DNA of 64,000 nt from Enterovirga sp. (GCF_028290205.1 NZ_JAQGKF010000137.1:1-64000); one strand, 5' to 3'. Shown: positions 11,002 through 26,124, counted from the first letter of the stretch. The notes: generated by a model from the sequence alone, not told the origin. Numbers and translations are program-made.

Positions 11002-12159
11002 TCAGCAATACGATTCCAGCGTGCCGCGCCGGCGGACGTCCAGAGTCGCGCAGTGGAAGGCGCCCCCGAAGGGGCCATAGGCGAGGAACGGGCACGGGAT
11101 CGGGTCGAAGCCCCAATCCTTGAGCGCCTTGATCAGGGTCGGCTGCGACTGGTCGACCACGACCTTCTTGTCTGTCAGGGACAGGACATTGATGGAGGTC
11201 CAGGGCGAGCACATCGAGATCTTGGCCATCACCCCCTCCACGGGATCCGGGCGCGGCGCGACCAGGATGTCCCAGTGCTTCAGGGCCGGCGGAAGGTTGG
11301 CCACGTCGCAATAATCCGGGTTCACGAGAACCTTGCCGGGCGCGAGCGGCATGAAGGTCGAGTCGATATGCATCGGCTGCTTGCACAGGCTCGGGATCTC
11401 GTGGATCCGGAAGCCGTCACCCAGATGCCGGCGCAGCCATTCGACGCCGAACCGGTTGGTGACATTGGACACGGTGACGAACAGGTCGCGACCGCAGCGC
11501 ACGAAGTCGGCCGCGTCGAACACCGGCTCCCACTCGTTGATGGTGTAGCGCATCTCCTCGCCCTTGGCCGGGATGCGGTAATCGTGCCGGTAGAGATCGT
11601 CGAGGAGCTGCGGCCGGGGCGCCGAGGTCCAGCGCGCGCCGGCCCGGAAATATTCCTTGAACAGGGAGCGGTAGGCGTCGCCCTCGAAATAGCGCGTGCG
11701 CCAGCACATCGGGCTCTCGATGATCTCGTCGCCAACGACGAGATATCCGTCCCGCGGACAGGCCGTGCAGAAGCCGCGCGAGGACCAGGCCGGGGTCGAG
11801 AACTTGGTCTTGAAATCGACGATGTCGGGACGCCGCACCTTCACGCCTTCGCCTTCCAGGATGGCGATGAAGGCGTCCAGGTCCTTTTGCGCGAGCTTGC
11901 GCATCCAGCTCGGGTAGCGGTAGCCGCCTACGAAGCGGTACAGCTTCGCCGCGAGCGGCGGCAGGTTGAACGTGACCGTGACGTGGTCGGACGGGATCGT
12001 GGCGCCTTCGAGCCGCCCGACGATCACCTCCTCCAAAGGATCCCACTCGTTCCAGGACATCACGGCCGGAGGCGTGCCGGGCAGGCCCGAGGCCTCGCGC
12101 GCCGGGCGGGGAGCCCCGTTCAGCGCGGCGGGACGGTCAGGCGCGTCGGTGGTCAGCAT
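11002..12159 (-). CDS. L-arginine amidinotransferase of the AGAT/StrB family
   Basis: SWNEWDPLEEVIVGR; EPVFDAADFVRCGRDLFVTVSNVTNRFGVEWLRRHLG (Asp region); CKQPMHIDSTFMPLAPGKVLVNPD (His region); YGPFGGAFHCATLDVRRRGTLESYC (catalytic Cys region, codon at 11050-11052). Confidence 0.92.
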   Translation of the reverse strand: MLTTDAPDRPAALNGAPRPAREASGLPGTPPAVMSWNEWDPLEEVIVGRLEGATIPSDHVTVTFNLPPLAAKLYRFVGGYRYPSWMRKLAQKDLDAFIAILEGEGVKVRRPDIVDFKTKFSTPAWSSRGFCTACPRDGYLVVGDEIIESPMCWRTRYFEGDAYRSLFKEYFRAGARWTSAPRPQLLDDLYRHDYRIPAKGEEMRYTINEWEPVFDAADFVRCGRDLFVTVSNVTNRFGVEWLRRHLGDGFRIHEIPSLCKQPMHIDSTFMPLAPGKVLVNPDYCDVANLPPALKHWDILVAPRPDPVEGVMAKISMCSPWTSINVLSLTDKKVVVDQSQPTLIKALKDWGFDPIPCPFLAYGPFGGAFHCATLDVRRRGTLESYC

Positions 12160-12442
12160 GGCGGTCTCTGTCTTGGTTCCTGTGCGGTCCGACGCCCGAG
12201 CTCCGGGTCGCGAGCCCCGGGGACGGCCTAGACAGGGATGGCCCAGCGCGGCCTGAGGGCGGAGCGCCGCACTCCAAAGAGCCGCGCGAGGCGGCCCGGC
12301 AGGGTCGCGACCTATACCAGAGGCCGTAACCAAGCCAACCGGTTCGGCCGGGGTGTGGCGACGATTCGCGCCTTCATGGTTTGCATTTGCGCTAAAGGAC
12401 CCTCCCGTCAGGCAGACGCGGCCGCCGGCCGCTCGGGACAGA

Positions 12443-13432
12443 ATGAAGCATTTCGCCCTTTTCGCATTCCTGGCCGGCGTCACGCTGTTCAGCCTCATCC
12501 TGGCCTGGTCCGGGCTCGACGACGTCGTCGCAGCCGCCGCCTCGGCCGGCTGGGCGACCCTCGTCGTGATTGCGGCCAGGGCTGGGGCGTTGGTCGCCGA
12601 AGGTGTCGCCTGGCGCATTCTGTTTCCACCCGGACAGACCCTCGGCACCGGCGTCTGCATCCTCCTCCGCTTCATCCGCGAGGCCGTGAACCAGCTTCTG
12701 CCCGTCGCGGCGGTGGGCGGGGACGTGGTCGGCGCGCGTCTCGCGACCTTCTGGCGCGCGGACGGGGCGCTCGCCGGCGCGACCATTTTCGCCGACGTCG
12801 CCGTGCAGGCCGCTACCCAGTTCCTGTTCGCGGCCGCCGGCCTTCTGCTTCTCTTCGTCCTGAAAGGGGACAGCGAGCTGGTCCGCTATGCGGCGTTTGG
12901 CCTCGCGCTCGCCGCAGCCGGGATCTCGGTGTTCCTGGCCCTGCAGCGCCGGCAGGGCTCGCGCTGGATCAATGCCGTGCTGCGCCGTCTCGGCGGTGGC
13001 CGGGACTGGTCCGCCACGGCCCTGGTCGAGCGCCTCTGGACCCGCCTCGGTGCGGTGTATGACCGGCCGCGCCGTGTGGCCGGCTGCGCTGCGATCCATT
13101 TGGCCGTCTGGGTGTTCGGCTCCGTGGAGGTTTATGTGGCGCTCTGGGCGATGGGCTACCCGGTGACGTTTGTTGAGGCGATCGTGATCGAGAGCCTGGG
13201 CCAGGCCGTGCGCGGCGCCGCCTTTGCCGTCCCGGGTGGGCTCGGCGTCCAGGAGGGCGGCTACGTGGCGCTGTGTGCGCTGTTCGGCATCCCGCCCGGC
13301 CCCGCCCTGGCGCTCTCGCTCGTGAAGCGCGTCGCGGACCTGACGCTCGGCCTGCCGTTCCTGGTCGCCTGGCAGGCATTGGAGGGTCGGCGGGCCCTGA
13401 CGCGGCCGGCGCTGGCGGAGCGCGGGCCTTGA
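12443..13432 (+). CDS. hpnL: HpnL-type lysylphosphatidylglycerol synthase TM-region family protein
   Basis: Polytopic membrane protein; RFIREAVNQLLPVAAVGGDVVGARL and AAFAVPGGLGVQEGGYVALCALFG; adjacent to hpnI. Confidence 0.88.
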   Translation: MKHFALFAFLAGVTLFSLILAWSGLDDVVAAAASAGWATLVVIAARAGALVAEGVAWRILFPPGQTLGTGVCILLRFIREAVNQLLPVAAVGGDVVGARLATFWRADGALAGATIFADVAVQAATQFLFAAAGLLLLFVLKGDSELVRYAAFGLALAAAGISVFLALQRRQGSRWINAVLRRLGGGRDWSATALVERLWTRLGAVYDRPRRVAGCAAIHLAVWVFGSVEVYVALWAMGYPVTFVEAIVIESLGQAVRGAAFAVPGGLGVQEGGYVALCALFGIPPGPALALSLVKRVADLTLGLPFLVAWQALEGRRALTRPALAERGP

Positions 13433-14601
13433 GCGCAGCCGAATGGATCTGGGCCCTGTTGATGGGAGCGGCTGGGCTCGGCACCGCCTACCTGCTCCTG
13501 TCGGTCGCCCTGGTGCGCCGCTTCGCGGCCGCCCGCGCCGCTGCCCCGTCGACGCCGCCGCCGGACGGAGTGCCGCCGGCCATCACCGTGCTGAAGCCGC
13601 TGCACGGGGTCGAGCCGGGCCTGCGGGAGAACCTGCTCACCTTGCTGCAGCAGGATTATCGCGGCCCGGTGCGCATCGTCTTCGGCGTCCAGAGCGGCGC
13701 GGACCCGGCCATCCGGGTGGTCGAGGCGCTCCGGCGCGCCCACCCCGCGCGGGACATCGCGCTGGTGGTCGATGCCCGACAGCACGGCTCGAACCGCAAG
13801 GTCTCCAACCTCATCAACATGGCGGCGCACATCGTCGGCGAGGTGGTGGTGCTGGCCGACAGCGACATCCGGGTTGGTCCGGACTACCTGTCGGGTCTGG
13901 TGGCCGAACTTGGCCGGCCGGGCGTCGGGGCGGTTACCTGCCTTTATCACGGCCTCGCCTCCCGCAGCCTCTGGTCGCGGCTCTCCGCCCTCGGCATCGA
14001 CACGCATTTCCTGCCCGGCATCGTGACCGGGGTGGCGGTCGGGCTGGCGACGCCCTGCATGGGGTCCACCATCGCCCTCCCACGCGAGACGCTGGAGCGG
14101 ATCGGGGGCCTGCAGGTCGTGGCGAACGCGCTGGCGGACGATTACGAACTCGGCGCCGCGGTGCGCCGGCTCGGGCTGTCCGTTGCGGTGCCGCCCTTCA
14201 CGCTCGGCCATGTCTGCCCTGAGGACAACGCTGCGGAACTGATCCGCCGCGAGCTGCGCTGGCAGCGCACCATTCGGCAGATCGATCCGCTGGGCCATGC
14301 CGGATCCCTCGTGACCCACCCGCTTGCCTTCGCGCTGCCGGCCCTGGCCCTCGGGCCCGGACCCGCCGCCCTCGCCCTGGTGGTGGCCGCGGCGCTGAGC
14401 CGCCTCGCCCTCTGCCTTGCCGCAGAGAGGGCGTTCGGATTAAAGCCACATCCCTACTGGCTTATTCCGGCACGGGACCTCATGTCCCTGCTTGTGTTCG
14501 CGGCGAGCTTCTTCGGCCGCGGCGTCGACTGGCGCGGCCACCGCTTCGACGTCGCGCCCTCAGGCGCGCTGATCCCCACAACGAGGCCCGACCCTTCATG
14601 A
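13429..14601 (+). CDS. hpnI: hopanoid biosynthesis-associated glycosyltransferase HpnI
   Basis: ITVLKPLHGVEPGLRENLLTLLQQDY, VVVLADSDIRVGPDYL, GATPCMGSTIALPRETLERIGG-like; RWQRTIR; TTG start overlapping hpnL stop. Confidence 0.9.
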   Translation: MSAAEWIWALLMGAAGLGTAYLLLSVALVRRFAAARAAAPSTPPPDGVPPAITVLKPLHGVEPGLRENLLTLLQQDYRGPVRIVFGVQSGADPAIRVVEALRRAHPARDIALVVDARQHGSNRKVSNLINMAAHIVGEVVVLADSDIRVGPDYLSGLVAELGRPGVGAVTCLYHGLASRSLWSRLSALGIDTHFLPGIVTGVAVGLATPCMGSTIALPRETLERIGGLQVVANALADDYELGAAVRRLGLSVAVPPFTLGHVCPEDNAAELIRRELRWQRTIRQIDPLGHAGSLVTHPLAFALPALALGPGPAALALVVAAALSRLALCLAAERAFGLKPHPYWLIPARDLMSLLVFAASFFGRGVDWRGHRFDVAPSGALIPTTRPDPS

Positions 14602-16034
14602 TGCGGACCCTCTTCCTCCAGGCTCCCTCCTACGAGGGCTTCGATGGCGGCGCCGGCTCGCGCTACCAGGCGCGCCGCGAGATCCAGTCCTTCTGGTATC
14701 CGACCTGGCTCGCCCAGCCGGCCGCGCTGGTCGAGAACTCCAAGCTGATCGATGCGCCGCCGCACAAGACGAGCCTTCAGGACGTGCTCGGCCACGTGCG
14801 CGACTACGACCTGGCGGTTCTGCACACCTCGACGCCGTCTTTCGAATCCGACGTGAAGGTGATCGAGGCCATGAAGGCCACGAACCCGAACCTCAAGGTC
14901 GGGCTCATCGGCGCCAAGGTGGCCGTGCAGTCTGACGAGAGCCTCAAGGAGGCCCCCGTGGTCGACTTCGTGGCCCGCAACGAGTTTGATTTCACGGTCA
15001 AGGACGTCGCCGACGGCGTTGCCTGGGGCAACATCAAGGGCCTGTCCTATCGCAACAGCGAAGGGGTCATCGTGCACAACGAAGACCGCGCGGTCATGCA
15101 CGACATGGACTCGCTGCCCTTCGTCACGCCGGTCTACAAGCGTGACCTGAAGATGGAGAACTACTTCATCGGCTATCTCAAGCACCCCTACATCTCGTTC
15201 TACACGGGCCGGGGCTGCAAGAGCCGGTGCACGTTCTGCCTCTGGCCGCAGACCGTCGGCGGCCACCGCTACCGGACCCGCTCCGTCGGGCACGTCATCG
15301 AGGAGGTGAAGTACATCCTCCAGGCGTTCCCGCAGATGAAGGAGCTGATGTTCGACGACGACACCTTCACGGACGACCTTCCGCGCGCGGAGGCGATCGC
15401 GAAGGAGCTCGGCAAGCTCGGCGTCACCTGGTCCTGCAACGCCAAGGCGAACGTCCCGCGCGACACCCTCAAGGTGCTCAAGGACAACGGCCTGCGCCTG
15501 CTGCTCGTCGGCTACGAGAGCGGCAACCAGCAGATCCTGCACAACATCAAGAAGGGCATGCGGGTCGAGGTGGCCGAGCGGTTCACCAAGGATTGCCACG
15601 AGCTCGGGGTCCAGATCCACGGCACCTTCATTCTCGGCCTGCCCGGCGAGACCAAGGACACCATCCGGGAGACCATCGAGTTCGCGACGCGCATCAACCC
15701 GCACACCATCCAGGTGTCGCTCGCGGCGCCCTATCCGGGCACCTTCCTGTACAAGCAGGCCCTGGAGAACGGCTGGCTGGACCTGAAAAACGCCGAGCTC
15801 ATCAACGCAAACGGCATCCAGATCGCTCCGCTGCACTATGAACATCTGTCGCACACGGAGATCTTCACCTCCGTCGAGGATTTCTACCGGAAATTCTACT
15901 TCCGCATCCCGAAGATCGCCTCCATCGTCGGCGAAATGGTCACCCAGCCGGACATGATGAAGCGCCGGTTGCGCGAGGGCATCGAGTTCTTCCGCTTCCT
16001 CAAGGAGCGCCGGGGCACCGCGCAGGCCGCTTGA
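14598..16034 (+). CDS. hpnJ: hopanoid biosynthesis-associated radical SAM protein HpnJ
   Basis: LFLQAPSYEGFDGGAGSRYQARREIQSFWYPTWLAQPA; cluster-binding CKSRCTFC; ATGA overlap with hpnI. Confidence 0.95.
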   Translation: MMRTLFLQAPSYEGFDGGAGSRYQARREIQSFWYPTWLAQPAALVENSKLIDAPPHKTSLQDVLGHVRDYDLAVLHTSTPSFESDVKVIEAMKATNPNLKVGLIGAKVAVQSDESLKEAPVVDFVARNEFDFTVKDVADGVAWGNIKGLSYRNSEGVIVHNEDRAVMHDMDSLPFVTPVYKRDLKMENYFIGYLKHPYISFYTGRGCKSRCTFCLWPQTVGGHRYRTRSVGHVIEEVKYILQAFPQMKELMFDDDTFTDDLPRAEAIAKELGKLGVTWSCNAKANVPRDTLKVLKDNGLRLLLVGYESGNQQILHNIKKGMRVEVAERFTKDCHELGVQIHGTFILGLPGETKDTIRETIEFATRINPHTIQVSLAAPYPGTFLYKQALENGWLDLKNAELINANGIQIAPLHYEHLSHTEIFTSVEDFYRKFYFRIPKIASIVGEMVTQPDMMKRRLREGIEFFRFLKERRGTAQAA

Positions 16035-16185
16035 CACCGGCGCAGGCGGCTTGACCCGCCGCCGTGTCTCCCGCGGTCCGGTCCGGCCGCGCTTGCCGGC
16101 CGTGGAACGCGGCGTGGCGAGCCGTCCGTTCGCGGCGGCCTGAAGGCAGGTGAGCGGGTCTGCTCCCCGCGCTGATCGGTTGACC

Positions 16186-17055
16186 ATGGATCCGGCCCGG
16201 GCGTCCCTTGTGGTCACCGCCGACGATTTCGGCCTCTCGCGGGAGGTGAACGAGGCCGTCGAGATCGGGCATCGGCGCGGCATTCTGACCGCAGCTAGCC
16301 TGATGGTGGCCGAGCCGTGGTGCGTCGACGCCGTGCTGCGGGCGCGCCGGCTACCGGGCCTCGCGGTCGGGCTGCACCTGACATTGGTCGAGGGGAGGGC
16401 GGTGCTGCCCCGTTCCGAAATCCCGGACCTCGTCGGGCCGGACGGCCGGCTTCGCCAGGACCTTGCCCGCTACGGCGCGGACATCTTCTTCCGCCCCGGC
16501 GTGAAGCGGCAGGTCGCGGCCGAGATCCGCGCGCAATTCCAGGCCTTCCGCCGCACCGGGCTCGCCCTGGATCACGTCAACGCGCACAAGCATTATCACC
16601 TCCACCCGACCGTCGCCGGCCTCGTCCTGCGGATCGGGCGGGAGTTCGGCATGACGTCGCTGAGGGTCCCGGTCGAGCCCGCCGCCGTGCTGGCTCAGGT
16701 CGAGCCGACGCGGCGGGGGCTGGAGGCCCGGCTGGCGGGACCCTACGCCGCGCTTCTGCGCGGGCGGGCCCGGCGGGCCGGGCTCACGGTTGCCGACCAG
16801 GTGTTCGGGCTCGCCTGGTCCGGCGCGGTCGATCCTGGCCGCATGGCCGGGCTGCTGAGAGCGCTGGCGCCGGGCCGCACCGAGATCTACCTGCACCCGG
16901 CGACGGCGGGCGGGTTCGACGGGGCGGCGCCGGGCTATCGGTATGCGGACGAGCTGGCGGCGCTCGTCCTCCCGGCGAGCCGCGCCGCGCTCGCCGAAAG
17001 CGGCGCGGCGGTGTCCAGCTATTCGTCCTGGGCCGGGACGGGCGCAATCTCGTGA
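16186..17055 (+). CDS. hpnK: hopanoid biosynthesis-associated YdjC-like deacetylase HpnK
   Basis: VVTADDFGLSREVNEAVEIGHRRGILTAASLMV; LDHVNAHKHYHLHPTV; EIYLHPA. Confidence 0.93.
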   Translation: MDPARASLVVTADDFGLSREVNEAVEIGHRRGILTAASLMVAEPWCVDAVLRARRLPGLAVGLHLTLVEGRAVLPRSEIPDLVGPDGRLRQDLARYGADIFFRPGVKRQVAAEIRAQFQAFRRTGLALDHVNAHKHYHLHPTVAGLVLRIGREFGMTSLRVPVEPAAVLAQVEPTRRGLEARLAGPYAALLRGRARRAGLTVADQVFGLAWSGAVDPGRMAGLLRALAPGRTEIYLHPATAGGFDGAAPGYRYADELAALVLPASRAALAESGAAVSSYSSWAGTGAIS

Positions 17056-17354
17056 ACGGCGAAACCGCTTCATGAGGTCGCATCGCCTCGCGCAAGGACG
17101 CGCCTCATGTGAGAGTGGCGCGAGCGGCGAAGATTCGCCGCAGCTCCTGATTCCGGCTACGGCGTCCGCCGACCCGTCGCCGATGCGCGGAAAGGCGCTT
17201 TTACAACGTGTCCTCAAGCATTAAGGGTGACGGCGAGCTCATCCTCGACGATCGACGTCGGAGGGTCCATAATACCTATCGGACGGGATCCGGTCCGTCG
17301 GAAAGCTCCTCGGCCGCGGCCGCAGAGCTCCGTCTCGGTGACAAGGGTACGGCG

Positions 17355-18314
17355 ATGAAGGTTGTGCTCGCGCAGCCGCGAGGGTTTTGTGCCGGGGTGG
17401 TGCGGGCGATCGACATTGTCGAACGCGCGCTCGCCAAATACGGCGCGCCCATCTATGTGCGCCATGAGATCGTCCACAATCGGCATGTGGTCGAGACGCT
17501 GAAGGCCAAGGGCGCCGTCTTCGTCAAGGAGCTCTCGGAGGTGCCGGCTGGCGCCGTGACCGTGTTCTCCGCCCACGGGGTCGCCCGCTCTGTCCAGGAC
17601 GACGCGAAACTGCGCAGCCTTCCCGTGCTGGACGCCACCTGTCCGCTTGTGACCAAGGTGCACAACCAGGGTCGTCGTTACGTGACGCAGGGCCGCACCC
17701 TGGTCCTCGTCGGCCATGCCGGCCATCCCGAGGTCGTGGGCACGCTCGGCCAGATCGATGGCGAGGTTCACCTCGTTCAGACTGCGGCCGATGTCGAGAC
17801 GCTGCCGCTCGCGCTGGATACGCCCATCGCCTACATCACGCAGACCACGCTGTCGGTGGACGACACCAAGTCGATCATCGAGGCCCTGAAGGCCCGCTTC
17901 TCGGACGTGATCGGGCCCGATACCCGCGACATCTGCTACGCAACTCAGAACCGCCAGGCGGCGGTTCGGCAACTTACTGGGCTTGTCGACGTTCTCTTGG
18001 TCGTCGGGGCCCGCAACTCGTCCAATTCCAACCGGTTGCGGGATGTCGGCGAGGAGGCGGGCGTGCCCTCGTATCTCGTGGCTGACGGCAGTGAAGTGGA
18101 TCCGGCCTGGCTGGTCGGCGCCAAGACGATCGGATTGACAGCCGGGGCCTCGGCCCCGGAGGTTCTGGTGGATTCCGTCATCGACGCGCTGCGGCGCATC
18201 GGTCCGGTGGAGGTTTCCATCCTCGACGGCACGGAGGAGAACATCACGTTCAACCTCCCGTTCGAGCTCCGCACTTTCGAGCCGGCCGCCGCGGCTCGGA
18301 CCGCTGCCGCCTGA
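17355..18314 (+). CDS. ispH: 4-hydroxy-3-methylbut-2-enyl diphosphate reductase
   Basis: [69 protein letters not shown]; start MKVVLAQP. Confidence 0.97.
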
Positions 18315-18342: not shown

Positions 18343-19503
18343 GTGGGTATTCCTCTCCGGCAGGTCGTCGACGTCGGCGCCTATGTGGTCAAGCAGCACC
18401 TTCAGGGCAAAAAGCGCTACCCGCTCGTCCTGATGCTGGAGCCTCTGTTCCGCTGCAACCTCGCTTGCGCGGGCTGCGGCAAGATCGACTATCCGGACGA
18501 GATCCTGAACCGGCGCATCTCCGTCGAGGACGCGCTCGGCGCCGTCGACGAATGCGGCGCGCCGGTGATCGTGATGGCCGGCGGCGAGCCGTTGATCCAC
18601 AAGGACCTGCCCAAGATCGTCGAGGGCATCATCGCACGGCGGAAATACGCGATCGTCTGCACCAACGCCTTGCTGCTCGAGAAGAAGATCGACCAGTACA
18701 AGCCCTCGCCCTATTTCACCTGGTCGATCCATCTCGATGGCGACACCGAGATGCACGACAAGTCCGTCTGCAAGGCGGGCGTCTATGAAAAGGCCACCGC
18801 GGCGCTGAAGCTCGCCAAGGAAAAGGGCTTCCGGGTCACGATCAACTGCACCTTCTTCAACGATTCCGATCCGGAGCGGGTGGCGAACTTCTTCGACATG
18901 GTGACGGCCATGGGCGTGGACGGCATCACCGTGTCCCCCGGCTACGCGTATGAGCGGGCGCCCGATCAGAAGCACTTCCTGAATCGGCGCACCACCAAGG
19001 AGCTGTTCCGGGGCGTGTTCCGACGCGGTGCGGAGCGGGCCAAGAAGGGCGGCACGCGCTGGGCCTTCAACCAATCCACCATGTTTCTGGACTTCCTGGC
19101 CGGCAACCAGAGCTACAAGTGCACCCCCTGGGGCAATCCCACCCGGACCGTGTTCGGCTGGCAGAAGCCCTGCTACCTCCTCGGCGAAGGCTACGCGAAG
19201 ACCTTCAAGGAGCTGATGGAGGACACGAACTGGGACAATTACGGCGTCGGTAATTACGAGAAATGCGCCGACTGCATGGTCCATTCCGGCTTCGAGGCCT
19301 CGGCCGTGAAGGACACCATTCGGCGGCCCTGGCAGGCCGCCAAGGTGGCCCTGTTCGGGATCGAGACCGAACGGGCGATGGCGCCCGACATCGACCTCTC
19401 GAAGCAGCGCCCGGCCGAATACGTCTTCTCGCGTAACGTGCAGCAGAAGCTGTCAGAGCTGAAGTCCGAGGTTCGGCCCGAGAAGGCCGCCAACGCGGCG
19501 TAG
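18343..19503 (+). CDS. hpnH: hopanoid radical SAM protein HpnH (adenosylhopane synthase)
   Basis: PLVLMLEPLFRCNLACAGCGKIDYP (CxxxCxxC), GGEPLIHKDL, FTWSIHLDGDTEMHDKSVCK; GTG start. Confidence 0.97.
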   Translation: MGIPLRQVVDVGAYVVKQHLQGKKRYPLVLMLEPLFRCNLACAGCGKIDYPDEILNRRISVEDALGAVDECGAPVIVMAGGEPLIHKDLPKIVEGIIARRKYAIVCTNALLLEKKIDQYKPSPYFTWSIHLDGDTEMHDKSVCKAGVYEKATAALKLAKEKGFRVTINCTFFNDSDPERVANFFDMVTAMGVDGITVSPGYAYERAPDQKHFLNRRTTKELFRGVFRRGAERAKKGGTRWAFNQSTMFLDFLAGNQSYKCTPWGNPTRTVFGWQKPCYLLGEGYAKTFKELMEDTNWDNYGVGNYEKCADCMVHSGFEASAVKDTIRRPWQAAKVALFGIETERAMAPDIDLSKQRPAEYVFSRNVQQKLSELKSEVRPEKAANAA

Positions 19504-20133
19504 CGTTCGGAACGCGCGGCCCGCATCGCGAGCGGTGCGGATCAGGCCCGGGATCTGGCCCGGGTCGCGGCCGATCCCGGCCAGGACCCGCAGCACGTCG
19601 ACGGAGCCGTCCGGCCGCATGGCCTGGCCGGCGACCTCCGGCAGAGTGTGATCGACCGAATCCGAGATGACCCGCAGCACGGCGAAGGGCAGGCCGTGCG
19701 CGGCTGCATAGGCCGCAGCGACGTGGGATTCCATGTCCAAGGCCGCGGCGCCGCTGCGCTCGGCGAGACGCCGCTTGTCGGCGGCGGCGAGGACGGGCCG
19801 ATCCGAGCCGATCAGCAGCCCTGCCACGCGCGGAGGGAGCTCGGCCGCGAGCCGGGCCCGCCATTGCTCGATGATGGCCGGGGAGACGGCCCGCTCGGGC
19901 CCGCCCTCGCAGCCCACCCGGTCGGGGCAGACGAGATCACCCGCCTCCAGATGCGGTGCGAGGGCACCGGCCATCCCAAAGCTTACCACGCCGCACAGCG
20001 TGTCCGGCCGAAGGGCCGCGAGCCGCTCGTCGAGCCCGCTCCGGCTGCCCCCGCCCACGACGGGCCGGAGGCCGGATCCGCGCAGGACGGCCGCCTCGCG
20101 ATTCAGCCCGCAGACGAGGAGAAGCTGCCGCAC
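19453..20133 (-). CDS. hpnG: hopanoid-associated phosphorylase/nucleosidase HpnG
   Basis: LVCGLNREA, VVSFGMAGALAPHLEAGDLVCPDRV, ALDMESHVAAAYAAAHGLPFAVLRVISDSVD. Confidence 0.92.
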   Translation of the reverse strand: MRQLLLVCGLNREAAVLRGSGLRPVVGGGSRSGLDERLAALRPDTLCGVVSFGMAGALAPHLEAGDLVCPDRVGCEGGPERAVSPAIIEQWRARLAAELPPRVAGLLIGSDRPVLAAADKRRLAERSGAAALDMESHVAAAYAAAHGLPFAVLRVISDSVDHTLPEVAGQAMRPDGSVDVLRVLAGIGRDPGQIPGLIRTARDAGRAFRTLRRVGGLLGPNLGLQL

Positions 20134-20164: not shown

Positions 20165-22138
20165 TCAAATGCCCCAGGGCACCCGCTGGGTGTTGGAGCG
20201 CTTGAGGTTGCGGTAGCGCGCCATGGCCCAGAGCGGGAAGTATTTCGGGTAGCCGTGGTAGCGCAGGTAGAAGACCCGCGGGAAACCGCCGCCCGTATAG
20301 GAATCCTGTGGCCACAGGCCGTCCTCCGCCTGGGTTTCGGCGAGATAGCGGATGCCGCGCTCGACGGCCTCCGTCTCGACGGCGCCGGCCGCCATCAGCC
20401 CGAGCAGGGCCCAGGCCGTTTGCGACGGCGTCGAGGGTGCCGCCACGTAGCCGTCGTAATCGAGCCGGTAGCTGTCGCAATCCTCGCCCCAGCCACCATC
20501 CGGATTCTGCACGGAGCACAACCACTCGACCGCGCGCTGGACCACGGGACCGTCCAGGTCGGCCCCGGCTGCGTTGAGGGCGCAGAGCGCCGACCAGGTG
20601 CCGTAGACGTAGTTCACGCCCCAGCGTCCGAACCAACTGCCATCCGGCAGCTGGTCGCGCTCGAGATAGGCGAGGGCTGCCTTCATGCGGGGGCTGTCGG
20701 AGGGCTCCCCAAGCTGCGCCAGCATGCCGATGCAGCGGGCCGACACGTCCACCGTCGGCGGGTCGAGCAGCGCGCCGTGATCGGCGAACGGGATGTTGTT
20801 GAGATAATCGTAGGTGTTGTCGGCGTCGAAGGCGCCCCAGCCGCCGTTCCGGCTCTGCATGCCCTCGATCCATTCCCGGGCGCGCGCCACGGGCTCGTCG
20901 AAGGCCGCCGCGTCACCCGCGAGCTTCGGCCGCAGCCGGTCCATAGCCAGCACCACGGCGGCGGTGTCGTCGGTGTCGGGGTAATGGGCGTTGTTGTACT
21001 GGAAGGCCCATCCGCCGGGACGCAGGCCCGGGCGCTCGTCGACCCAATCGCCTTTGACGTCGAGGATCTGGCGCGGCTTCAGCCAGCGCATGGCCTCCAC
21101 CACGGCCTGCTCCGCCTGCACATCCCCGGTCTCGAGGAGCGCATGTGCGGCCAGCGCCGTATCCCAAACCGGCGAGACGCAGGGCTGAAGATAAGCCTTC
21201 TCCTCGTCGACCACGAGCAGCTTCTCGATCGCGCCCCGGGCGGTGGCGCGGTCCGGATGGCTCTCCTCGTAGCCGAGAGCGTCGAACATCATCACGGAAT
21301 TGGCCATGGCCGGGTAGATGCCCCCGAGCCCGTCCTCGCCGTTCAGGCGCTCACGCGTGAATTCGACGGCCCGCTCGATCGCCCGGGCCCGGAGCTTGGT
21401 CGGCCAATGCGGGTCCACCTGCTTCAGCAGGACATCGAGGCTCTTGAAGAGGGCCGCCCAGCCGCGTTTCACATGGGTCTTGGCCTTGCGCCGGCCCGAG
21501 CCCGGCGCTGCGAACAGCTCCTGCACGCCGATGGCGCGCGGGTTCCGGGCCTTCGGCTTGATCGCCATCACGACCAGCAACGGCGCGAGCACCGTCCTGG
21601 CCCAGTAGGACATCTTGCCAAGGTGGATCGGGAACCAGCGCGGCAGGAGGATCATCTCCACCGGCATGGAGGGCGTGGCGTTCCAGGACATCTCGCCGAA
21701 CAGGGCGAGCTGGATCCGAGTGAACACGTTGGCGGTGCCCGCCCCGCCATGGGCCAGAATGGCCTCGCGCGCCTTTGCCATATGCGGCGCCGCCGGATCG
21801 TCCCCGATCATCTTCAGGGCGAAGTAGGCTTTCACGGAGGCGGAGACGTCGAACGCCCCGCCGTGGAAGAGCGGCCAGCCGCCATGCTCGCCCTGAATGG
21901 ACCGCAGATAGCGCCCCATCTTGGCCTCGAGCTCGAGGTTGTCGGGCTCGCCGAGGAAATGGCGCAGGAGGATGTATTCGGCCGGGATCGTGGCGTCGGC
22001 TTCCAGCTCGAAACACCAATGGCCGTCGTCGTGCTGATTGCCCAGCAGCGCTGCCGTGGCCGAGCTGATGGCCGAGTCGAGAGCCACCGGGGAGGGCGCG
22101 GCGCCCGGATCGTGCCGGATAGGAGCGACGAAATTCAC
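20165..22138 (-). CDS. shc: squalene-hopene cyclase
   Basis: DXDD catalytic motif (YPDTDDTAAV); multiple QW-type repeats (QNPDGGWGEDCDSY, QAEDGLWPQDSYTGGGFPRVFYLRYHGYPKYFPLWAMARY); GTG start. Confidence 0.98.
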   Translation of the reverse strand: MNFVAPIRHDPGAAPSPVALDSAISSATAALLGNQHDDGHWCFELEADATIPAEYILLRHFLGEPDNLELEAKMGRYLRSIQGEHGGWPLFHGGAFDVSASVKAYFALKMIGDDPAAPHMAKAREAILAHGGAGTANVFTRIQLALFGEMSWNATPSMPVEMILLPRWFPIHLGKMSYWARTVLAPLLVVMAIKPKARNPRAIGVQELFAAPGSGRRKAKTHVKRGWAALFKSLDVLLKQVDPHWPTKLRARAIERAVEFTRERLNGEDGLGGIYPAMANSVMMFDALGYEESHPDRATARGAIEKLLVVDEEKAYLQPCVSPVWDTALAAHALLETGDVQAEQAVVEAMRWLKPRQILDVKGDWVDERPGLRPGGWAFQYNNAHYPDTDDTAAVVLAMDRLRPKLAGDAAAFDEPVARAREWIEGMQSRNGGWGAFDADNTYDYLNNIPFADHGALLDPPTVDVSARCIGMLAQLGEPSDSPRMKAALAYLERDQLPDGSWFGRWGVNYVYGTWSALCALNAAGADLDGPVVQRAVEWLCSVQNPDGGWGEDCDSYRLDYDGYVAAPSTPSQTAWALLGLMAAGAVETEAVERGIRYLAETQAEDGLWPQDSYTGGGFPRVFYLRYHGYPKYFPLWAMARYRNLKRSNTQRVPWGI

Positions 22139-23424
22139 GGTGAAGCCTTTGACACAGAACTCGAACTGCGGCTAACGCCGCTCTGCAACACACTGTTCGC
22201 CGCCTCGCCGGATCGTATCGCGCCTTCGATGGTCGCCGGCAAGCCCGTCGCAGTCCAGTCGCCTGCGAGAACCAGATTACGGTAAGCAGTGGCGGGGGCG
22301 GGCCGGCGTCCGGCCTCGGCCGGTGTGGCCGCAAAGGTGGCCCGTTTCTCCTTGACGACCTGCCAGGGCGGCATCGGTTCGGCCGGGAGGCCCGTAACTG
22401 TTGCGACCTCCTGCCAGATCCGCCGCGCCAGCTCGTCGCGGGGCTCGTCAAACCAGCGGTCGCCGTCGCTGACCGTTACGGAAAGACGGTCCGGATAGGC
22501 GAACAGCCATTCTGACAGGCCGCCGACCACCCCGAGCAGCAGCGGCTGCCCGGGCGGGGGGGCGATCCGGAAATGCGCGTTCAGGATGCCGCGGTGGGCT
22601 TCCGGCACGGCGAGGCCCGGCACGAGGCCCGCCGCGACCGGGCCAGGGACGGCCAGAACGACGGCGTCACCCGGGCCGATCTCGGTCACGCCGTCCGCAA
22701 AGGCGAGCTCGGAGACCCGCCCCTCCGTGGCCTGGATGCCGCGGAGGCGCGTGCCGAACCGGATCTCAGCCCCGCGCCCCGTCAGATAGGCGAGGGCGGG
22801 ATCGACGAAGGCGGCTGAAAGGCCCCCTGTCGCGACCAGGGGGTGGCAGGCGCGGCCGCCGGCCCCGAGCGTTTCGCGCAGGACCGGAGCCGCGAGGCCC
22901 GCGGCCGAGATCCTGGGATCGGTGTTGAGGGCGGCGAGGAGGACGGGGTGCCAGAGCCGCTCCCACAGCGGGCCCTCGCAGCGCATCACCTCTCCGATCG
23001 TCCGCTCGGGGCGGGAGCGCAGGATCGCGAGGGGCGCCAGGTAGTCGCGGGCCGAGGTTCCGGGCACGCGGCGCGACGGCACGAAGATCCACCAGGGCAG
23101 CCGGCCCTCGTTCGGCCGCAGCCGCCAGCGCTCGCCGGTGCCGAGATCGGCGAAATCGAAGGTTGCCTCGCCCGGTCCCTCCAGCGCGCCCCGCCCGCCG
23201 ACCAGATCCAGGTAGCTCATGGCCGAGCGGTTGCCGGACAGGAGCAGGTGGTTGCCGTTGTCGATGACCAGGTCGAGCGTGCTGTCGTGGTAGGACCGGC
23301 AGCGGCCCCCGGCCGCCTTGGCGGCCTCGTGCAGCACCACCGTCTCGCCGCGCTCGGCCAGCCGCACGGCCGCGCTCAGGCCGGCGAGTCCGGCGCCGAC
23401 GACGTGAACCGTGCGGGCGCTCAC
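22135..23424 (-). CDS. hpnE: hydroxysqualene dehydroxylase / squalene-associated FAD-dependent desaturase
   Basis: VHVVGAGLAGLSAAVRLAERGETVVLHEAAKAAGGRCRSY (FAD Rossmann); NGNHLLLSGN; C-terminal LAGDWTATGLPATIEGAIRSGEAA; GTG start overlapping hpnD stop. Confidence 0.96.
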   Translation of the reverse strand: MSARTVHVVGAGLAGLSAAVRLAERGETVVLHEAAKAAGGRCRSYHDSTLDLVIDNGNHLLLSGNRSAMSYLDLVGGRGALEGPGEATFDFADLGTGERWRLRPNEGRLPWWIFVPSRRVPGTSARDYLAPLAILRSRPERTIGEVMRCEGPLWERLWHPVLLAALNTDPRISAAGLAAPVLRETLGAGGRACHPLVATGGLSAAFVDPALAYLTGRGAEIRFGTRLRGIQATEGRVSELAFADGVTEIGPGDAVVLAVPGPVAAGLVPGLAVPEAHRGILNAHFRIAPPPGQPLLLGVVGGLSEWLFAYPDRLSVTVSDGDRWFDEPRDELARRIWQEVATVTGLPAEPMPPWQVVKEKRATFAATPAEAGRRPAPATAYRNLVLAGDWTATGLPATIEGAIRSGEAANSVLQSGVSRSSSSVSKASP

Positions 23425-24257
23425 GCGAAGGCGTGCCGAAGAAGAGCCAGCACGAGAGGGAGCTTGGCCGTGCGGACGCGGCTGCGGGGCGGGGCGAAGC
23501 CACGCCGCTCGAGCCGGTCGAGCACCGAGCGGTAGGCCGCCTCCATGAGGCGCGGGGCCCGCACGGCCCCCCGCGGCTGGCCCCGCATCACCCGGTCGGC
23601 CTCGCTGTAATGCTCCCGTGCCCGGGCGATCACCTCCTGGCAGGCAGCCTCGAGCCCCGGATGGGCCAGGACGGCCGCCGGGGAGAGATCCTTCATCCCG
23701 GCTCGCTGCAGCGCCTCCGCCGGCAGGTAGAGCCGGCCGATGGCCGCGTCCTCGTCGAGGTCGCGCAGGATGTTGGTGAGCTGCAGGGCCCGGCCGAGGT
23801 GATGGGCGAGTTCGTCGGCGTCCCGGTCCTTCAGCCCGAAGACCCGGCCCGACAAACGCCCGACCGAACTCGCGACGCGGTCGCAATAGAGGTCGAGCGT
23901 TTCCCAATCCGGGGCCTGGATGTCCGCCTGGGCGTCCATCTCCATGCCGTCGATCATGTCCAGGAAGCCGTCGCGGCCGAGCCGGAACGTCCGAACATGC
24001 GGGGCCAGCGCGGCCGTGGTCGGCCTCGCCTCCCCCCGATAGAGCGCTTCGATGTCGTCCCGCCAGCGGGCGAGTTGCTCCCGGCGCGCGGGCCGCGGCC
24101 CACCGTCGTCGGCGATGTCGTCCACCGCCCGGCAGAAGGCGTAGATCGCGTACATGGCGTCGCGCTTCGCCTTCGGCAGGATGCGCATGCCCAGATAGAA
24201 CGAGGAGCCGGAGGCCGGCAGGGCCGGCGCGGCATCCGCAGCCGCCGCTTGGGTCAC
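23421..24257 (-). CDS. hpnD: presqualene diphosphate synthase HpnD
   Basis: SFYLGMRILPKAKRDAMYAIYAFCRAVDDIADDGG; GRALQLTNILRDLDEDAAIGRLYLP; GTG start overlapping hpnC stop. Confidence 0.95.
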   Translation of the reverse strand: MTQAAAADAAPALPASGSSFYLGMRILPKAKRDAMYAIYAFCRAVDDIADDGGPRPARREQLARWRDDIEALYRGEARPTTAALAPHVRTFRLGRDGFLDMIDGMEMDAQADIQAPDWETLDLYCDRVASSVGRLSGRVFGLKDRDADELAHHLGRALQLTNILRDLDEDAAIGRLYLPAEALQRAGMKDLSPAAVLAHPGLEAACQEVIARAREHYSEADRVMRGQPRGAVRAPRLMEAAYRSVLDRLERRGFAPPRSRVRTAKLPLVLALLRHAFA

Positions 24258-25129
24258 GCCGTGGCTCCAGCCCGGATCGCGCCCGTGCCCGGCCGCCGCT
24301 GCCACAGCGCTCGCAGGATCCCGGCTCCGGCCGAGCGCAGCGCCTCGGCCTTGGTCGCGTGCACGCGCTCCGACAGCGGGTCCCGCCGCCGCAGGGTGGC
24401 GACGAGCGCTTCGGCCAGCGCCTGGATCACGCTCACCTCGAGCCCGAGGCGGAGGTCGCGAACCTGGCCCGGAAAGACCGCGCTGGCACGCAGCAGCCCG
24501 GCCGCCCCCTCGTTCAGCTCGCGGATGGCCGCCAGGAGCCCGGGCGTGGCGCGCGGCCGGGAGAGGTCGGCCACGGTGGCGCCGTGGCGGCTCAGCGCAT
24601 CCTCGGTGAGGTAGACGCGGTCGAGTTCGCGGGCGTCCTTGCCGCAATCCTGCAGGTGGTTGATCACCTGGAGCGCCGCGCAGAGTGGATCGGAGGCCGC
24701 CCAGGTGGCGCGGCTCTCGCCATGGACGTCCAGCACGAAGCGGCCGACCGGCATGGCGGAGAGCGCGCAATAGCCCATCAGCTCGTCCCAGCTGCGGTAG
24801 CGGTTCTTGCGGGAATCCAGCCGGAACGCCTCCAGGAGATCCTGCGCGTGGGTGGCCGGCAGGCCGCGCTCGGCGAGCGCCAGCCGCAGCGGCTCCGCCT
24901 CGGGATCGGGCGGGGCGCGGCCGAGGAGAGCGGCTTCCAGCCCATCCAGCAGCCGCAGCTTCGCGTCCGCCGGCATGGTCGGGTGGTCGGACACGTCGTC
25001 GGCGGCCCGCACGAAGCGGTAGAAGGCCAGGATCGGCCCGCGGTGGCGGGCGCTGACGAGCCGGGCGACCGGGAAATTCTCGTCCGTGTGCCCCTTCCCG
25101 GACCTCGCCGCGGTGGCTGTGGTGGTCAT
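24254..25129 (-). CDS. hpnC: hydroxysqualene synthase HpnC
   Basis: ENFPVARLVSARHRGPILAFYRFVRAADDVSDHP; LQVINHLQDCGKDARELDRVYL. Confidence 0.95.
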   Translation of the reverse strand: MTTTATAARSGKGHTDENFPVARLVSARHRGPILAFYRFVRAADDVSDHPTMPADAKLRLLDGLEAALLGRAPPDPEAEPLRLALAERGLPATHAQDLLEAFRLDSRKNRYRSWDELMGYCALSAMPVGRFVLDVHGESRATWAASDPLCAALQVINHLQDCGKDARELDRVYLTEDALSRHGATVADLSRPRATPGLLAAIRELNEGAAGLLRASAVFPGQVRDLRLGLEVSVIQALAEALVATLRRRDPLSERVHATKAEALRSAGAGILRALWQRRPGTGAIRAGATA

Positions 25130-26124
25130 CGGAGGGTGCCTGCGGCCTGGAACCAGGCGATCGCGTCAGCCAGCCCCTGCCGGTAAGGCCGTGACGTGTA
25201 GCCGATCTCCCGGCGTGCTTTCGCGTCGTCGAAGAACATGCGGTACTTGGCCATGCGCAGCGCGTCCCGGGTGACGAAGGGCTCCCGGCCGGTGAGGTGG
25301 GCCACCGCTTCGGCGCCGAGCGCGAGCGGCCAGATCGCTTGCCGGGGCAGCCGGACGGTGGGTGCGCGCCGCCCGACCAACTCGGCGATGTCGGCCAGCA
25401 TGCGGGACAGGAGAACGTTTTCGCCGCCCAGGATGTAGCGCTCGCCGATGCGGCCATGCCGCAGCGCCGCCAGGTGCCCGGCCGCCACGTCGTCGACATG
25501 GACCAGGTTGAGTCCGGTATCGACAAAGGCCGGCATGCGGCCGCGGGCCGCCTCGACGATGATGCGACCGGTCGGCGTCGGCTTGACGTCCCGTGGGCCG
25601 ATCGGCGTCGACGGATTGACGATCACGGCCGGCAAATTCTCGTCCCGGATCATGGCCTCGACCATGCGCTCGGCCAGGACCTTCGAGCGCTTGTAGAGCC
25701 CGATCGCCGTCTCGGGCGTGAGCGGGCGGGTCTCGTCATGGCCAGGCGTCAAGGTCGCGACGCTGGACGTGTAGACCACCCGCTCCAGGCCCGCGGCCAG
25801 GGCCTCGCGCATCAGGTTGCGGGTGCCCGCGACATTTGTCTCGACCAGTTCCTCCGGGCGGCGCGACCAGAGCCGGTAATCGGCCGCGACATGGACCAGG
25901 TGGCGCACGCCCTGGAGCGCCGGCTTGAGGGAGGCCGCGTCGCGCAGGTCGCCGGTTGCGACCTCATCCTCGGGGTGGAGATTTGTGCGCGGACTCGAAG
26001 GCCGCACCAGCGTACGGACGCGGTAGCCCGCCTCACGAAACGTGTTCGCGACCGCCGAGCCGACAAAGCCCGACGCGCCCGTTACCAGGACCGTGGTGCC
26101 GCGTTCCGCGGTGGCCTCGCCCAT
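25126..26124 (-). CDS. hpnA: hopanoid-associated sugar epimerase HpnA
   Basis: VLVTGASGFVGSAVANTFREAGYRVRTLVRP, VYTSSVATL, VNPSTPIGPRDVKPTPTGRIIV, YILGGENVLLSRMLADIAELVGR. Confidence 0.94.
   Translation of the reverse strand: MGEATAERGTTVLVTGASGFVGSAVANTFREAGYRVRTLVRPSSPRTNLHPEDEVATGDLRDAASLKPALQGVRHLVHVAADYRLWSRRPEELVETNVAGTRNLMREALAAGLERVVYTSSVATLTPGHDETRPLTPETAIGLYKRSKVLAERMVEAMIRDENLPAVIVNPSTPIGPRDVKPTPTGRIIVEAARGRMPAFVDTGLNLVHVDDVAAGHLAALRHGRIGERYILGGENVLLSRMLADIAELVGRRAPTVRLPRQAIWPLALGAEAVAHLTGREPFVTRDALRMAKYRMFFDDAKARREIGYTSRPYRQGLADAIAWFQAAGTLR

Follow-up and report, generated by a model that had tools for sequence, protein, structure and literature searches.

An AGAT-type amidinotransferase gene linked to hopanoid biosynthesis genes in Enterovirga sp. 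as a candidate for the guanidine step of hopanoid headgroup formation

Analysis of a 64,000-nucleotide stretch of Enterovirga sp. DNA (NZ_JAQGKF010000137.1:1-64000; this whole stretch is referred to as the window) revealed a gene for an amidinotransferase of the arginine:glycine amidinotransferase (AGAT) type, located at 11002 to 12159 on the minus strand beside hopanoid biosynthesis (hpn) genes. With a probability of roughly 0.78, this gene encodes an arginine:hopanoid amidinotransferase that modifies a headgroup amine, with the guanidine-substituted cyclitol ether of bacteriohopanetetrol (BHT) as the main product. As a genomic prediction, the candidate assignment is strongly supported. An earlier note on this DNA had proposed a hopanoid amidinotransferase; the linkage, the co-occurrence and the separate clade described below partly support that interpretation, with two corrections: the closest characterized relative is SxtG rather than StrB, and the steadiest partner is a particular HpnL subfamily rather than HpnJ.

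The open reading frame encodes 385 amino acids and is uninterrupted by stop codons. Searching the PDB revealed matches spanning the whole protein, namely SxtG (6u1r; 441 bits, E value 3.7e-131; residues 29 to 384), human GATM (1jdx/1jdw; 314 bits, 1.2e-92) and StrB1 (1bwd; 251 bits, 1.8e-73). A Pfam search returned no family at 0.001, and the sole NCBIfam match, to dimethylargininase, was weak. The three motifs bearing the catalytic triad are present; Asp215, His264 and Cys370 (codon 11050-11052) align to Asp254, His303 and Cys407 of GATM and are invariant in all 114 compared sequences, of which 88 belong to the hpn-linked clade and 26 do not. The protein resembles solved AGAT-type enzymes along its full length and has their Asp/His/Cys triad, which places it in this family. 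The complete gene, the three triad regions and the position of the Cys codon had been described in the earlier note and were confirmed here. The Enterovirga genome, of 3.64 Mb in 256 contigs at 96% completeness, has a single copy of the gene, whose nearest named relative is the gene of Enterovirga rhinocerotis (92% identity). An AlphaFold model generated from an 11-row alignment (mean predicted local distance difference test score of 65) was too weak for pocket comparison and was not used.

The amidinotransferase gene starts 283 bp from the ATG of hpnL (12443) and is oriented divergently from it, the intergenic region being positioned at 12160 to 12442. hpnL (12443 to 13432, plus strand; TIGR03476, 299.9 bits; PF03706) encodes an LPG-synthase-TM/flippase-like membrane protein, assigned by a subfamily tree to an amidinotransferase-associated subfamily. 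It is followed on the plus strand by hpnI (13429 to 14601, start uncertain; BHT N-acetylglucosaminyltransferase; TIGR03472, 425.5 bits), hpnJ (14598 to 16034; radical SAM protein for BHT cyclitol ether formation; TIGR03471, 815.9 bits) and hpnK (16150 to 17055; deacetylase of N-acetylglucosaminyl-BHT; TIGR03473, 348 bits). All four exceed their NCBIfam cut-offs, and the coordinates agree with the spacing and divergence from hpnL-hpnI-hpnJ-hpnK reported previously. A conserved divergent promoter was sought in the intergenic region, which aligns poorly among relatives, and an Rfam scan of the window detected no guanidine riboswitch or other RNA element by the gene and one tRNA only.

Linkage was analyzed in 80 named relatives with at least 71% identity, one genome per species being scanned. 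These include Methylobacterium, Methylorubrum, Enterovirga, Acetobacteraceae, Sphingomonas, Paramagnetospirillum, Burkholderia and others. hpn genes are located within 10 kb of the amidinotransferase gene in 77 of the 80 loci; hpnL flanks it in 76, hpnJ in 68, hpnI in 66 and hpnK in 63, and the median gap to hpnL is 265 bp. The divergent order is found in Enterovirga, Methylobacterium and Methylorubrum (Methylobacteriaceae). Acetobacteraceae, Paramagnetospirillum and Burkholderia sp. H160 have both genes on one strand, with hpnL preceding the amidinotransferase gene. In a Hyphomicrobium metagenome-assembled genome the amidinotransferase gene is faced by hpnI-hpnJ, in sphingomonads (Sphingomonas) hpnI-hpnJ are convergent toward hpnL, and several loci hold hpnL and the amidinotransferase gene with hpnI, hpnJ and hpnK not nearby. 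Because gene order varies by lineage, the linkage must have been kept or formed more than once. Its conservation in unrelated lineages, rearranged yet retained, is hard to explain other than by a shared function of the amidinotransferase and the hpn genes. The earlier note had asked whether this subclade co-occurs with hpnJ across genomes; it adjoins and co-occurs with hpn genes, hpnJ included, but hpnL is the steadier partner (76 versus 68 of the 80 loci), in the form of a particular HpnL subfamily. In E. rhinocerotis (L122:9179-12547), two inserted unrelated genes, one PrpD-like and one for a calcium-binding-repeat protein, separate the amidinotransferase gene from hpnL by 3.8 kb, and in a Methylobacterium locus (L060:7966-8619) an MlaC/HpnM-like gene, absent from the window, lies between hpnL and hpnI.

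A maximum-likelihood tree placed the hpn-linked amidinotransferases in one clade (support 100/95), separate from the other sampled amidinotransferases, which answers the earlier note's question of how the subclade relates to them. Its neighbors are the G112 pair, followed by a Bradyrhizobium/G025 group and by G784. StrB-type and far Streptomyces sequences, which had given long branches in a quick tree, were left out of the final tree. The Bradyrhizobium sequences are carried on conjugative plasmids (L128 and L129) and form with that of G025 (L120) a sister group of 58 to 61% identity. In G784 (L144; about 65% identity), whose genome encodes no HpnJ, the amidinotransferase gene overlaps a gene for a membrane protein with an SfLAP (sulfolipid-addressing-like) domain; this enzyme is possibly another lipid amidinotransferase. 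Neither the Bradyrhizobium/G025 group nor G784 has hpn genes nearby, which indicates that the wider family has other jobs.

Comparison of substrate-site residues, in GATM numbering carried over from the PDB alignment and the GATM structure papers, revealed three changes in the clade. Asn300 of GATM is replaced by Gln261 and Ser354 by Cys317 in all 88 members, and Arg322 is replaced by Tyr283 in 87 of 88; Asp170 and Asp305 are kept in all. Arg or Lys occupies the GATM-322 position in 18 of 20 distant members. The clade lacks the Asn300/Arg322/Ser354 set of arginine:glycine amidinotransferase proper. The Gln/Tyr/Cys changes are consistent with an acceptor that is not glycine, without identifying it.

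The HpnL partner forms a subfamily of its own. In a tree of HpnL proteins, 24 of 25 distinct copies adjacent to an amidinotransferase gene fell into one clade (98/95), which contained only three nonadjacent copies (row L163 being counted as nonadjacent). A second HpnL gene is common among amidinotransferase carriers that are not Methylobacteriaceae (G104, G444, G446, G447, G448, G451 and G453); in G104, G448 and G451 the copy next to hpnJ falls into a separate clade (99/99). The split was noted for the window gene and for L099, L100, L103, L105, L123, L156 and L160; in Methylobacterium, further HpnL copies encoded elsewhere (L157 and L158) group with the amidinotransferase-adjacent ones. An HpnL subfamily that travels with the amidinotransferase is a finding beyond the earlier note. 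HpnL belongs to the same fold family as the transmembrane region of MprF (PF03706), and the associated HpnL probably flips or moves the guanidinylated, cationic product. A wider proposal is tentative and is given less than even odds: the amidinotransferase and its own HpnL paralogue may constitute a cassette, spread among alpha-, beta- and deltaproteobacteria, that makes and translocates guanidinium hopanoids, acts on BHT-glucosamine as well as on BHT cyclitol ether, and provides the outer membrane with an arginine-like lipid. Its logic would be MprF-like, the cationic guanidinium hopanoid being likened in effect to aminoacylated phospholipids.

Co-occurrence extends the link beyond the locus. 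In a survey of the class, HpnJ was present in 4 of 4 amidinotransferase carriers (at least 60% identity) compared to 29 of 387 genomes overall (Fisher P = 2.6e-5; 3.4e-4 without the window genome). A phylum survey of 398 genomes found HpnJ in 6 of 6 carriers at 75% identity or more and two carriers at 61 to 66% without it. Among the close relatives searched, HpnJ was found in 7 of 8 carriers with at least 60% identity; the exception is G025 (61%), which lies outside the clade. In G104 and G112, HpnJ is encoded on a contig other than that of the amidinotransferase, which indicates co-occurrence beyond mere adjacency. Across carriers belonging to the hpn-linked clade or to G112/G104, 14 of 16 have HpnJ, and the remaining two (G446 and G450) have HpnK. 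G450, a draft genome of Crenalkalicoccus roseus, encodes the amidinotransferase, squalene-hopene cyclase (shc), and hpnI beside hpnK, with no hpnJ detected, so the amine-forming steps are kept in these core-clade relatives that lack HpnJ. A carrier at 64% identity in the Syntrophobacteraceae phylum (G993) has both hpnJ and hpnK. What the carriers with HpnJ or HpnK have in common is a route to a headgroup amine. The amidinotransferase is missing from the majority of genomes with HpnJ, which would be expected of a guanidine form that is optional. The hpnJ gene of another draft genome from the genus of the window (G007:C497:1180-2592) contains one in-frame TAG, which may be an assembly error.

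These observations were compared with the reported distribution of guanidine hopanoids. The occurrence of guanidine-BHT cyclitol ether in Methylobacterium has been on record since 1985 (work of Renoux and Rohmer cited by PMC5642901). The compound is reported from M. organophilum and other methylotrophs (PMC5642901), in line with the earlier note, and the same paper cites Zymomonas, Geobacter sulfurreducens and bloom-forming cyanobacteria as producers. In M. extorquens, adenosylhopane leads to BHT cyclitol ether and its guanidine form (PMC5358736). The named carriers include members of groups reported to make the compound, which is used as a sedimentary biomarker. Searches of the literature, in which subscription journals are thinly covered, found no published gene for the guanidine step and nothing linking amidinotransferases to hopanoids, although a prior assignment is possible; a Zymomonas systems paper names guanidine as a denaturant only. 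A 2025 survey of 54 alphaproteobacteria (PMC12583986) grew five species of carrier genera: E. rhinocerotis, Methylobacterium soli, M. oxalidis and Methylorubrum rhodesianum, which are among the named carriers here, and M. aquaticum.

In the established pathway, HpnI adds N-acetylglucosamine to BHT, HpnK removes the acetyl group to give a free amine, and HpnJ contracts the sugar to the amino-cyclitol ether (PMC12583986). In the proposed extension, the amidinotransferase would then transfer the amidino group of its predicted donor, arginine, to Cys370, with the assistance of Asp215 and His264. This corresponds to the ping-pong mechanism established for AGAT, in which the amidino group is carried on the catalytic Cys. 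Passage of the group to the headgroup amine would yield guanidine-substituted BHT cyclitol ether and ornithine, and the adjacent HpnL would flip or move the cationic product. Judged from sequence and gene context, the enzyme very probably amidinates a glucosamine-derived hopanoid amine; the cyclitol ether is the likelier acceptor, and BHT-glucosamine is the main alternative.

Several points weigh against this assignment. M. extorquens and M. organophilum are outside the 80 kept loci. The co-occurrence P values ignore kinship, and the independent lineages number perhaps eight to ten. The main text of the 2025 survey never mentions guanidine hopanoids, which may not have been sought (PMC12583986). 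In the Syntrophobacteraceae phylum, amidinotransferase matches came from only 3 of 218 genomes, one match being weak, and none came from the small f47 genomes that have HpnJ. The hpn-linked clade may thus not account for every reported producer, given that Zymomonas, Geobacter and cyanobacteria are cited.

The same enzyme could act in another order, with BHT-glucosamine amidinated before or instead of the HpnJ step and HpnJ either accepting the guanidino form or being bypassed. Dolichospermum BIR53 contains guanidine-BHT-glucosamine, and Nostoc is reported to contain it as well (PMC5642901). C. roseus, in which hpnI and hpnK were detected and hpnJ was not, suggests that BHT-glucosamine may also be a substrate, and its locus (L171) predicts guanidine-BHT-glucosamine. 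Against this stand the flanking of 68 of the 80 loci by hpnJ, the presence of HpnJ somewhere in nearly all carrier genomes, the draft state of the C. roseus genome and the cyclitol ether as the main reported product; we consider this order unlikely, though it is the strongest competitor. Much less probable is an acceptor that is not derived from glucosamine, such as 35-aminobacteriohopanetriol, the product of HpnO, or another aminolipid handled by HpnL. The position of HpnL as the steadiest partner and the loci with hpnL and the amidinotransferase gene but no hpnI, hpnJ or hpnK nearby would agree with it, and E. rhinocerotis produces chiefly an aminotriol isomer (PMC12583986). The same study, however, found hpnO in none but its Hyphomicrobiales strains, and the carriers with HpnJ include Acetobacteraceae, Burkholderia, Paramagnetospirillum and Sphingomonas. 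An ordinary small-molecule enzyme (for guanidinoacetate, homoarginine or a natural product) adjoining hopanoid genes by chance would match the relatives without hpn neighbors (Bradyrhizobium plasmids, G025 and G784), but it is very improbable. The linkage is conserved in many families although gene order differs, an HpnL subfamily is dedicated to the enzyme, and the clade has lost the Arg322 equivalent kept by most GATM/StrB-like members. We also know of no reported guanidino-aminotriol, which weighs against the aminotriol as acceptor.

The hopanoid island of the window extends beyond hpnK, and the earlier note's description was incomplete, leaving out the stretch ispH-hpnH-hpnG-shc-hpnE/D/C/A-dxs. 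On the plus strand, hpnK is followed by ispH for isoprenoid precursor supply (17208 to 18314, start uncertain; NF002188, 485.5 bits) and hpnH, encoding adenosyl-hopene transferase (18343 to 19503; TIGR03470, 541.2 bits). The minus strand carries hpnG for hopanoid phosphorylase (19453 to 20133; TIGR03468, 201.8 bits), shc (20165 to 22138; TIGR01507, 769.3 bits) and hpnE, hpnD, hpnC and hpnA for squalene formation and a hopanoid-associated epimerase (22135 to 26124; TIGR03467, TIGR03465, TIGR03464 and TIGR03466, all above cut-off). Past hpnA, dxs and a gene of the farnesyl-diphosphate-synthase type extend the island up to position 29.2 kb or so. The genes to the left of the amidinotransferase gene (MipA, dehydroquinase II, glutathione S-transferase and aldo-keto reductase) are unrelated to hopanoids.

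A gene for the guanidine step would let producers be predicted from genomes and would allow testing of biomarker claims for Geobacter versus cyanobacteria versus methylotrophs, as well as of the role of a cationic hopanoid in the membrane. HpnL, an orphan protein, gains a concrete hypothesis.

The curated models assign the window neighbors to the HpnI-HpnK-HpnJ pathway, although that pathway as published to BHT cyclitol ether includes no amidinotransferase. StrB1, an inosamine-phosphate amidinotransferase, amidinates an amino-cyclitol and offers a chemical analogy to the proposed step, but it is more distant from the window protein than SxtG or GATM. The earlier note had pointed to StrB-type relatives; the closest characterized relative is SxtG (441 versus 251 bits). 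A StrB-type gene that is 39% identical lies beside a StrS-family aminotransferase gene in a streptomycin-like context and has Arg at the Arg322 position; the clade shares neither this context nor a grouping with StrB-type sequences, the tree position of the 39% identical sequence being unreliable (long branch). GATM has the triad and Asp170/Asp305 in common with the hpn-linked clade and differs in Asn300/Arg322/Ser354, where the clade, in its context of hopanoid synthesis, has Gln/Tyr/Cys. SxtG, from saxitoxin biosynthesis, acts on a polyketide-derived amine and is the closest solved relative. It shares the fold family and the triad and likewise has an aromatic residue at the Arg322 position, but in the PDB alignment it has Glu and Val where the clade has invariant Gln261 and Cys317, and it has no hopanoid context. 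To our knowledge, the AGAT-type family is otherwise known for small molecules and natural products; if the assignment is true, the window gene would add a lipid-acting member.

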